From Limnohabitans sp. (GTDB lineage Bacteria > Pseudomonadota > Gammaproteobacteria > Burkholderiales > Burkholderiaceae_C), in the NCBI GenBank assembly GCA_021300495.1, contig JAJTDK010000019.1:1-64000 (forward strand): DNA of 64,000 nt, given 5' to 3'. Each line of letters opens with the position of its first letter. Position 1 is the stretch's first letter. The notes under the pieces are model-generated. The model was given only the letters and a program-made list of their open reading frames with translations, did not search any database and was not told the DNA's origin. The position numbers and the translations under genes were made by a program. Shown here in pieces: positions 7,948-34,473 of the stretch.

Positions 7948-8262
7948 ATGTACGAGGAAAATCAAAGCTCCGTGCCTGAATCCTTCATGATGTTGTACGT
8001 CAAGCAAGGACAGTACAAGCCCAGCTTGCCGCGTCATGAATTAACCCAACGGTATGAGTTATGCGAAGACATGGCTATGATGTTGATGGACACTGTCAGT
8101 ACGCAGCAATTTCAGCTTGGTATTACAGAAACCGATGCACTCGCAAAGTGCTGGCACGGCCTGTTGGAAACGCCTCTTTTAATCAATTCGGACGAAGCTT
8201 TCTGGGTGGTATGCCGCCTGGCTGAACTTTTGTCTTGGCCCATTCCAGAATCTTTAGAATAA
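7948..8262 (+). CDS. Hypothetical protein
   Basis: 104-aa ORF directly upstream of rng, no recognised domain. Confidence 0.5.
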   Translation: MYEENQSSVPESFMMLYVKQGQYKPSLPRHELTQRYELCEDMAMMLMDTVSTQQFQLGITETDALAKCWHGLLETPLLINSDEAFWVVCRLAELLSWPIPESLE

Positions 8263-8267
8263 GACCT

Positions 8268-9743
8268 ATGCAGCAAGATATTTTGATCAACTGGTCTCCC
8301 CAAGAAACCCGCGTTGCAGTGGTAGAGCAGGGTGCTGTTCAAGAGCTGCATGTTGAACGTTCTTTAGAGCGTGGCTTGGTCAGCAACATCTACCTTGGCA
8401 AAGTGGCCCGCGTTTTGCCGGGCATGCAGTCGGCCTTCATTGACATCGGCCTTGAGCGCGCAGCTTTTTTGCATGTGGCAGATGTCTGGCAACGGCAGCC
8501 TGAGGGCGAGCCCCCCCAAGTCGCACGCAGCAGTCAGACCTTGGTCCCCATTGAGAAGCAAGTTTTCGAAGGCCAAGCCTTGATGGTGCAAGTGGTCAAG
8601 GATCCTATCGGTACCAAGGGCGCTAGGCTTTCTACCCAAATTAGCATTGCTGGCAGGCATTTGGTCTTTTTGCCGCAAGACGACCACATTGGTGTGTCTC
8701 AAAAAATTCCATCTGATCAACGTGATGCTTTAAGGGCGCGTTTGCAAAATTTGGTGGGTGCACAGGGCGGTGGCTTCATTCTGCGAACCAATGCAGAAGA
8801 TAGCAGCGATGCAGAGTTGGGTGAAGACATTGCTTACCTTCGAAAAACATGGGCGCGAATCAAAGACGCTTCTATCAAGCTGCCAGTGCAGTCATTGCTT
8901 CACCAAGACCTGACTCTTTTGCAAAGAGTCTTGCGAGACCTTGTAGGCGAAGGCACACAAACCATTCGCCTTGACTCCAAAGAACAATTTGAACATTTGT
9001 CCGCGTTTGCCAAAGAGTTCATGCCGGCTTCAGCGGCCCGGCTTCAACTGTACAAGGGTGAGCGTCCTATTTTTGATTTGTATTCAATCGACGAGGAAGT
9101 GGCCAAAGCTTTGGGCCGTCGGGTTGAACTCAAGTCGGGTGGCTACCTCATCATTGACCAAACAGAAGCCCTGACCACTGTCGATGTAAATACAGGTGGC
9201 TACGTAGGCGCACGCAATTTTGATGACACCATTTTTAAAACAAATCTAGAGGCAGCGCATGCCATTGCTCGGCAACTTCGATTGCGCAATCTGGGTGGCA
9301 TCATCATTGTTGACTTCATTGACATGTCCCGCGAGGAGCATCAAACCGCAGTGCTTGACGAGTTTAAAAAACAATTAAGCCGCGATCGTGTCAAAACAAT
9401 GGCGGGTGGATTTTCGCAACTGGGTTTGTTGGAAATGACACGCAAGCGAACAAGAGAATCTTTGTCGCACATGCTGTGTGAGCCGTGCCCCAGTTGCGAC
9501 GGCAAAGGCAGTGTCAAAACCAACCGGACGGTGGTTTACGATATCCTGCGTGAAATATTGCGCGAGGCTCGTCAGTTCAATCCGAAAGAGTTTCGAGTGG
9601 TGGCTGCGCCTGCTGTCATTGAGTTGTTGCTGGATGAAGAGAGCCAGCATTTGGCTGCGCTGTCTGATTTTATTGCCAAGCCCATTTCGCTTCAGAGTGA
9701 AACCGCCATGGGTCAAGAGCAATACGACGTTGTGTTACTTTGA
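8268..9743 (+). CDS. rng: Ribonuclease G
   Basis: RNase E/G family: S1-like N-terminus (ERGLVSNIYLGKVARVLPGMQSAFIDIGLERAAFLH), DVNTGGYVG, IIVDFIDM, CPSCDGKG zinc link; start ATG 8268. Confidence 0.95.
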   Translation: MQQDILINWSPQETRVAVVEQGAVQELHVERSLERGLVSNIYLGKVARVLPGMQSAFIDIGLERAAFLHVADVWQRQPEGEPPQVARSSQTLVPIEKQVFEGQALMVQVVKDPIGTKGARLSTQISIAGRHLVFLPQDDHIGVSQKIPSDQRDALRARLQNLVGAQGGGFILRTNAEDSSDAELGEDIAYLRKTWARIKDASIKLPVQSLLHQDLTLLQRVLRDLVGEGTQTIRLDSKEQFEHLSAFAKEFMPASAARLQLYKGERPIFDLYSIDEEVAKALGRRVELKSGGYLIIDQTEALTTVDVNTGGYVGARNFDDTIFKTNLEAAHAIARQLRLRNLGGIIIVDFIDMSREEHQTAVLDEFKKQLSRDRVKTMAGGFSQLGLLEMTRKRTRESLSHMLCEPCPSCDGKGSVKTNRTVVYDILREILREARQFNPKEFRVVAAPAVIELLLDEESQHLAALSDFIAKPISLQSETAMGQEQYDVVLL

Positions 9744-31730: not shown

Positions 31731-32837
31731 TTATTGACGTAAAACCAACCACCAAAATGTAGCCAGTGAAACCACGCTGTAAATCAGTGCGGGCGCGGCG
31801 GCTGTGAGCCAAGGCTGCCAATTTTGCAAATTGCCAATGAAGCCAAAAACGTTGTTCAGCAAATAAAAACTGATGCCAGCCATGACCCCTCCAAAAACAT
31901 AGCCTGCGATGTTGCCTGATCTGAAATGCAAATAAGCAAATGGCAAAGCAAGCGTCAGCATGACCCAGCAACTCAGTGGGTAAAACACCTTTCGCCAAAA
32001 TTGAATTTCATAGCGTTGTGCATTTTGACCATTGGCAGTCAAATGTCGCATGTATTGAAACAAGTCGATGGTTTTCATTCGATCGGGACTCAGGAGCGCA
32101 GCCGAAATCATCTCAGAAGTGATTTCAGTTTTCCATGACCATTCCGGCAGATTCAAAATTTCGATTCTCGAATCTTCGCCGCTTGAAATGTGAAAAATTC
32201 GCCGATCGACGGGTTTCAAAAGCCAAGATCCGTCATCCATTAACTGGGCGCTTGGCGCAAGGGTCATCGACTTGAGCCGACCTTCGTTGTCAAATTCATG
32301 AATGCGAATATTCTCGGGCTGGCCTTCGCTGCTCAGGGATCTGACGTTGACGGCAAATTGTGATTGCGTCTGCTTTTCTCGCAGCCAAGCGCCAGTTTGG
32401 CCAACAGTAATTTGCCCTTGGTAATGCGCTTTCAAAAGCTGTGCTTGTTTGTCAGTCCAAGGCGAGATGTAGTCACCTAATACGAAGGTGACAGTCACAA
32501 ACACAAGGCCCAATTGAAAGAGTGTGTGAAGTGCGCGCCAAGGACCCAAGCCGCCTGTTCTGAGGATGGTGAATTCGGAGCTCTGCGCAAACCGAGCCAT
32601 GACGAAAATAGAGCCAATCAAAACAGAAATAGGCAGCAACTCATACAAATGGCTTGGCATGAGTAAGGCCACATACATCAACGCATGCTGAAGTTGATAA
32701 CCCTGAAATTTGTTTCGACTCAGTGTTTGAAGTTGATCGACCAAGTCAAAAAAAACAAACAAGGCCAGAAAGCCAATGGCAACAAAACTAACCGCTCGAA
32801 TGATTTCTCCGTGAATTAATCGGCGAATTGTTTTCAT
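31731..32837 (-). CDS. lptG: LPS export ABC transporter permease LptG
   Basis: MKTIRRLIHGEIIRAVSFVAIGFLALFVFFDLVDQL...; YjgP/YjgQ family; start ATG 32837 overlaps the upstream lptF remnant stop (ATGA). Confidence 0.88.
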   Translation of the reverse strand: MKTIRRLIHGEIIRAVSFVAIGFLALFVFFDLVDQLQTLSRNKFQGYQLQHALMYVALLMPSHLYELLPISVLIGSIFVMARFAQSSEFTILRTGGLGPWRALHTLFQLGLVFVTVTFVLGDYISPWTDKQAQLLKAHYQGQITVGQTGAWLREKQTQSQFAVNVRSLSSEGQPENIRIHEFDNEGRLKSMTLAPSAQLMDDGSWLLKPVDRRIFHISSGEDSRIEILNLPEWSWKTEITSEMISAALLSPDRMKTIDLFQYMRHLTANGQNAQRYEIQFWRKVFYPLSCWVMLTLALPFAYLHFRSGNIAGYVFGGVMAGISFYLLNNVFGFIGNLQNWQPWLTAAAPALIYSVVSLATFWWLVLRQ

Positions 32838-32962
32838 GTGCCACCATCCGTTCTGCGCAACTGAGGCATAGCCAACATCATTTTCAGGATCGTGGCAAAA
32901 ACCACAAAGGCGGCAGCAAAACTTCGGGCTAAATCTTTTTGAATGGAAGAATGGAATAACAT
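32834..32962 (-). pseudogene. lptF: LptF remnant: N-terminal about 25 aa fused to a short C-terminus (42-aa ORF)
   Basis: Translation MLFHSSIQKDLARSFAAAFVVFATILKMMLAMPQLRRTDGGT*. The N-terminus matches the LptF start pattern (MLFxSSIRKELARSF...), position is divergent to pepA, and the stop overlaps the lptG start; a full-length LptF is expected here. Confidence 0.75.
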
Positions 32963-32985: not shown

Positions 32986-34473
32986 ATGAACTTTGATTTA
33001 AAAACACTTTCTTTGGCAGCCGCCGCAAAATCCCCCGCTGACGTCTTGATTGTCCTCATTTCTGAGCACTTTCAAGCCGCCAAAGACCCACTTTCCTTGC
33101 TGATCGAAAAAGCGATAAAAGCCAAGGACTTTTCAAGCAAAAAAGGGAAAGTTCTCCACGCCTATGGTGCGGCTGGTATTTCTGCATCCAAAGTGGTGTT
33201 TTTGGGGGTAGGAGCTGCCACTGCCGCAGACATGAAATCTGCCATGTCTGGGCTGACTGCCAGTTTGAAAGCCGCCGAAACCAAGAAGCTCACTGTCGTA
33301 TCGCCCGAACCCCTCAGTGCGCAGGCACTGCAAGCCTTGCTTTTGGCTTTGGCTGATGGCACCTATGTTTACGGCACCACCAAATCAAAACCCAGCACGC
33401 GCTCTTTAAGCCAAGTTAGCGTGGGTTTGCCCAGCGTTAATCTCAGCTTGCAAAACGCCTTGAAAGCCACTGTTGGCATGATCCAAGGCATAGAGTTTGC
33501 CAAAGAGTGGGCCAACCGACCAGCCAATCATGCAACGCCCACCATGTTGGCCAAGGCTGCCATGACCCTGGCCAAATCTGGCGCAATGTCATGCGAAGTG
33601 CTAGGCCCCAAAGAGGTTGCCAAGTTGGGCATGGGCTCTTTCATGTCCGTTGCACAAGGATCTGCCGAGCCGCTTCGTTTCATTGTGCTGAAATACCAGG
33701 GGGGCGCTAAATCTGAGGCGCCCACTGTGCTGGTGGGTAAGGGCATTACCTTTGATACCGGTGGTATTTCTCTCAAGCCACCAGGTCAAATGGACGAGAT
33801 GAAATTTGACATGGGTGGCGCTGCCAGTGTCTTAGGCGTTTTTAAATCCTTGAGTACCATCCAACCCAAAATCAATGTTGTGGGCTTAATCCCTGCCTGT
33901 GAAAACATGCCAGATGGCCTGGCTGTGAAGCCAGGTGATGTGGTCACCAGCATGAGTGGTCAAACCATTGAAATTTTGAACACAGATGCTGAAGGACGCT
34001 TGATTTTGTGTGATGCGCTCACCTATGCAGAGCGATTTAAACCTCAAGCGGTCATTGACATTGCGACGCTCACTGGTGCTTGTGTCATTGCATTGGGGGC
34101 TGTTCGAAGCGGCATGTTTGCCACCGAGGATAAACTGGCCCAAAGTCTCCTTCAAGCGGGAGATGAAGCCATGGATCTTTGCTGGAGAATGCCACTCGAT
34201 GAGGAGTATGCTGACGCACTGAAAAGTAATTTTGCGGATGTCGCCAATGTCGGTGGCAGCGAAGGTGGCGCTATCAAGGCTGCAAAATTTTTACATCGCT
34301 TTGCAAAAAAATACCCATGGGCTCATTTGGACATTGCGGGCACAGCTTGGAAAGGCGGGGCTTCCAAGGGTGCTACAGGCAGACCTGTTGGTTTGTTGCT
34401 GTCTTACTTGCTGGCCCAACAACCCAAGATTGCAAAAGCATCTGCGAAAAAGACGGGTCCTGCAACGAAGTAG
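32986..34473 (+). CDS. pepA: Leucyl aminopeptidase (M17)
   Basis: VLVGKGITFDTGGISLKPPGQMDEMKFDMGGAASVLG, NTDAEGRLILCDALTYAERF; start ATG 32986. Confidence 0.95.
   Translation: MNFDLKTLSLAAAAKSPADVLIVLISEHFQAAKDPLSLLIEKAIKAKDFSSKKGKVLHAYGAAGISASKVVFLGVGAATAADMKSAMSGLTASLKAAETKKLTVVSPEPLSAQALQALLLALADGTYVYGTTKSKPSTRSLSQVSVGLPSVNLSLQNALKATVGMIQGIEFAKEWANRPANHATPTMLAKAAMTLAKSGAMSCEVLGPKEVAKLGMGSFMSVAQGSAEPLRFIVLKYQGGAKSEAPTVLVGKGITFDTGGISLKPPGQMDEMKFDMGGAASVLGVFKSLSTIQPKINVVGLIPACENMPDGLAVKPGDVVTSMSGQTIEILNTDAEGRLILCDALTYAERFKPQAVIDIATLTGACVIALGAVRSGMFATEDKLAQSLLQAGDEAMDLCWRMPLDEEYADALKSNFADVANVGGSEGGAIKAAKFLHRFAKKYPWAHLDIAGTAWKGGASKGATGRPVGLLLSYLLAQQPKIAKASAKKTGPATK

Follow-up and report, generated by a model that had tools for sequence, protein, structure and literature searches.

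LptF (YjgP; TIGR04407, PF03739) is part of the LptB2FGC exporter. It is normally essential where LPS is present, it is essential in E. coli, and its gene is usually fixed in the order lptF-lptG. The gene remnant described here was found in the window, a stretch of 64,000 nucleotides from a genome of Limnohabitans sp. (G000). It derives from such an lptF, and the relocated copies detected in related genomes score as LptF. In contrast to the usual situation, the gene has here left the slot between pepA and lptG for a setting of lipid A modification genes, and lptG stands alone behind a short stub.

A connection between lipid A modification and this exporter was described in Burkholderia cenocepacia, in which L-Ara4N on lipid A is needed for LPS export and the loss of ArnT is tolerated only in combination with a suppressor in lptG (LptG D31H) (PMC5377068). 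Both there and here, an ArnT glycosyltransferase is tied to a subunit of LptFG in the Burkholderiales; in B. cenocepacia the link consists of genetic suppression in lptG, whereas here it is the physical linkage of an arnT-like gene with a replacement lptF. Hypothetically, the dependence of B. cenocepacia on L-Ara4N might provide a plausible mechanistic reason for this linkage.

The remnant also resembles ATGA-coupled leader ORFs, which are short and possess a stop codon overlapping the next start; unlike these, the putative leader would be what remains of an essential gene of full length. A further parallel is the divergent (reciprocal) resolution of duplicates, because genomes of this genus contain only the native lptF (G020, G001), only a second copy, termed LptF2 (G088, G073), or both. 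The difference is that an essential transporter subunit is concerned, and that another, apparently horizontally moved type of copy occurs in the genus. The case is of a known kind, in which an essential transporter subunit is relocated and replaced. A search of the open-licence literature for LptF paralogues, for lptF together with arnT and for remnants serving as leader ORFs revealed no direct precedent for this variant.

In the window, lptG (positions 31731 to 32837, minus strand; PF03739 match with 217 bits) is intact, and the divergent gene pepA, encoding leucyl aminopeptidase, is located at positions 32986 to 34473 of the plus strand, with an upstream region that overlaps the 5' end of lptF. 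Between them lies an ORF of 42 codons (32834 to 32962, minus strand; translation MLFHSSIQKDLARSFAAAFVVFATILKMMLAMPQLRRTDGGT, followed by the stop codon). Its start is 23 nt away from the ATG of pepA, and its stop codon overlaps the start of lptG (ATGA). The sequence-only reading had regarded this ORF as a fusion of the N- and C-termini of lptF which lacks about 1 kb and retains the flanks and the coupling to lptG. Comparison with a close relative, G020 (97% complete; 95.9% and 94.7% identical amino acids in LptG and PepA, respectively), bears this out. There, the slot is filled by an intact LptF of 370 amino acids, and in a DNA alignment with its gene, codons 1–26 of the remnant (32885 to 32962, minus strand) correspond to the N-terminus, and the final approximately 15 codons with the stop (32834 to 32884, minus strand) to the C-terminus. 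Compared with lptF as it occurs intact in close relatives (1113 nt), 984 nt (328 codons) are missing in frame. The ORF showed no match to Pfam and comprises only the two ends of the full-length PF03739 permease of about 350 residues. In seven relatives, codons 1–26 are nearly invariant at the protein level; G000 deviates from them at five residues among codons 15–26 and additionally at codon 27. These observations confirm that the region from 32834 to 32962 is a truly truncated native lptF.

The 42-codon fusion is also found, with its junction unchanged, in another species, represented by an independent MAG of an uncultured member of the Burkholderiales (G088, from ERR864077, contig CALCBL010000026.1, 94% complete). 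The two stubs differ in 13 of 129 nt, and the loci share 93.8% identical nucleotides. Because the junction is common to both, the deletion dates back to their common ancestor, before the species split. A stub of 55 codons is present in G073 (96% complete). A single deletion common to G073 and the pair G000/G088 was considered, as in both cases the deletion begins after codon 26; however, the 3' breakpoints are unlike each other, and genomes with intact lptF are placed between them in the LptG tree, in a region which is weakly supported.

G088 possesses exactly two PF03739 genes, namely lptG behind the stub and, on another contig and beside ugd, the gene of a protein of 367 amino acids, LptF2. 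The LptF2 of G073 is 89% identical to it, and in both genomes LptF2 is the sole LptF; from this status it was inferred that LptF2 pairs with LptG and LptB. LptF2 proteins form one clade (100/99) from ten genomes, and the other eight also contain the native lptF (split over contig ends in G068). These relatives show that LptF2 is an ancient second LptF, which coexists with the native gene in eight members of the genus. LptF2 reached 319.9 bits with the NCBIfam equivalog model of LptF (TIGR04407, cut-off 230) and 53.8 bits with that of LptG; by this comparison LptF2 is predicted to be an LptF.

LptF2 is encoded in a block with the order ppk, LpxF-like PAP2 phosphatase, ArnT-like protein, ArnC-like protein, LPG-synthase-like membrane protein, second PAP2 protein, NAD-epimerase, lptF2, ugd and MFS protein. 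The matches of the LpxF-like phosphatase (E-value 3.5e-32), the ArnT-like (1.4e-38) and the ArnC-like protein (4e-52) are all below the equivalog cut-offs, and for this reason exact activities are not claimed. G001 contains the same block minus precisely lptF2, with ugd and the epimerase gene separated by about 109 bp, and its native lptF is intact, which indicates that the copies were kept or lost in opposite combinations across species. The clean absence is located at positions 8569 to 8678 of locus L128 (G001:C1:1030000-1049900), from ugd to the epimerase gene. Two ORFs of about 676 and 180 amino acids were observed between lptF2 and ugd at the loci L033, L034, L116 and L117; they are absent from this position in G009 and G088.

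As consequences of a real loss, the sequence-only reading had named a displaced lptF, LptG homodimers or the absence of LPS. Of these, the displaced gene is the one supported, by the full-length LptF2 of G088, the homodimer is not needed, and the absence of LPS found no support. In G000 itself, a fragmented draft of 132 contigs which is 86% complete, the second YjgP/YjgQ protein to be expected in the first case did not appear: in the assembled 86%, lptG is the only match to the LptF/LptG family. The epimerase, PPK, ArnT-like protein and LptF2 of the block were not found in the assembly either, and a DNA search with the ugd-containing stretch yielded a single match of 120 nt only. The same queries detected their counterparts in G088, G073, G098, G001, G079 or G005 (67–88% identical amino acids or about 75% identical nucleotides), so the whole block, including LptF2, appears to be unassembled in G000. 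Most likely, LptF2 of G000 is thus encoded in the unassembled part together with the ppk-to-ugd block; its presence is deduced from what G088, the sister species, encodes and from LptF being essential. In the same genus, the assemblies of G061 (99% complete) and G095 (94% complete) show no match to the LptF/LptG family.

Beyond what had been read from the window, the loss of lptF recurs in the genus. Nine members are devoid of lptF in the slot between pepA and lptG. Beside G000, G088 and G073, these are G022, G096 and G066 as well as G052, G046 and G042, and all six encode a full-length LptF elsewhere, immediately beside a gene for an ArnT-like protein. This ArnT-linked LptF scored 319.4 bits with the LptF model (cut-off 230) and 55.9 bits with that of LptG, and forms one clade (100/100), which is different from LptF2. 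In the LptG tree, its hosts occupy two distinct positions; a single LptF clade in two host groups suggests that an arnT-lptF cassette was transferred horizontally and that the native lptF was lost afterwards. At six loci in varied chromosomal settings (L032, L068, L080, L122, L124 and L125), the ArnT-like gene lies directly upstream of the relocated LptF gene, and the two genes resemble a cassette that has moved horizontally. An ArnT-like gene near the cassette type, with no adjoining LptF gene, occurs at positions 8073 to 9677 of locus L131 (G057:C42); G057 retains its native lptF. On the LptG tree, lptF has to change between lost and retained three times; at least two changes are still required when only branches with strong support are considered. 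The number of loss events is at least two and probably three or more.

The explanation we favor, with a probability of roughly 80%, is that the stub is inherited, that LptF2 supplies the LptF function, and that the stub is kept as a promoter region of pepA and for the coupling of lptG. The native lptF was deleted to an in-frame stub of 42 codons in the ancestor of G000 and G088. LptF2, encoded in the unassembled 14% of G000, would form the LptF half of LptB2FG together with LptG of the window, and LPS export would continue through these two proteins. Approximately the first 15 nt of the stub would be retained as part of the pepA promoter region, the frame ending on the lptG start would deliver ribosomes to lptG (termination-reinitiation), and the peptide itself would be functionless. 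The persistence of the stub might thus be explained by its 5' end and by its frame.

With regard to the 5' end, the lptF start ATGTTATTC is kept in all nine stubs. All of them contain a DNA element of 14 nt, ATGTTATTCCATTC (positions 32949 to 32962, read on the minus strand), with C or G as the tenth base; on the plus strand it includes TAACAT, a candidate -10 of the pepA promoter. On the pepA strand, the lptF start reads GAATGGAATAACAT; this stretch is located immediately upstream of pepA and might represent a -10 region. A scan for sigma70 consensus promoters and terminators between 32600 and 33300 yielded no site at the threshold and no -35/-10 pair. Each of the 39 intact lptF genes has TTA as codon 2, TTC as codon 3 and a codon 4 ending with AT, whereas other leucine codons vary, which indicates a constraint on this DNA in addition to that on the protein. 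With regard to the frame, eight of the nine stubs are open (25–55 codons) and possess a stop overlapping the lptG start. As judged from sequence, these eight would qualify as leader ORFs, with a frame ending on the next start across lineages. In the ninth stub (G042), a frameshift of 1 nt causes the frame to end about 10 nt before lptG.

It is also possible, albeit less likely, that LptF2 is working and the stub is simply a pseudogene in decay, whose start and frame have survived due to recency or by chance. Its amino acid changes are indeed neutral, and in simulations the chance of an open frame was 0.3–0.7 per lineage without indels, so that retention alone is not significant and the support for coupling is moderate. 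Mere decay agrees less well with the preservation of the start in nine of nine stubs from at least two loss events, of which eight end on the lptG start, and with the fixation of codons 2–4 at the DNA level even in intact genes. Furthermore, an in-frame deletion is expected by chance in only about one third of the events.

A function of the 42-codon ORF as a small membrane protein that originated from the first LptF helix is very improbable. The ORF is hydrophobic and open in two species; however, between G000 and G088 the pN/pS ratio of the stub is 0.97–1.00 (lptG 0.08; pepA 0.10), and the stubs of G052, G046, G022 and G066 have only the first residues in common. Neutral amino acid change and sequences differing between lineages make a function of the peptide unlikely, and the conserved small membrane protein which would have spoken against the fusion interpretation was not encountered. 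Equally improbable is an export of LPS without LptF by an LptG homodimer (LptB2GG). It would fit the solitary lptG in the available part of G000, but the near-complete genomes G088 and G073, in which this stub or a similar one is present, both encode a full-length LptF2, and lptG shows no unusual evolution.

An assembly or binning artefact, with a full-length lptF in the organism and a chimeric or collapsed contig, might be suspected because of the fragmented state of the draft, but is highly improbable. The identical junction with diverged flanks in the separately assembled species G088 excludes an error in a single genome, the five amino acid changes affect retained codons that are otherwise almost invariant, and no long repeat was found at the junction of the deletion. 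A loss of LPS, completed or in progress, could account for the missing export gene and is scarcely conceivable, as LpxC, LptA, LptC and LptD are present in G000 and strong purifying selection acts on lptG.

On a broader scale, and only tentatively, LptF might be regarded as an exchangeable specificity subunit: variants would travel with ArnT-like and LpxF-like lipid A genes and take the place of the native lptF when lipid A is modified, and the leader ORF that remains would be under selection because it maintains the translation of the solitary lptG. The repeated replacement of lptF by copies linked to ArnT-like genes within one genus would provide a testable case for LptF contributing to the choice of the lipid A form that is exported. 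The nine stubs would likewise serve as natural replicates that indicate which parts of a lost gene are still needed by its neighbors.
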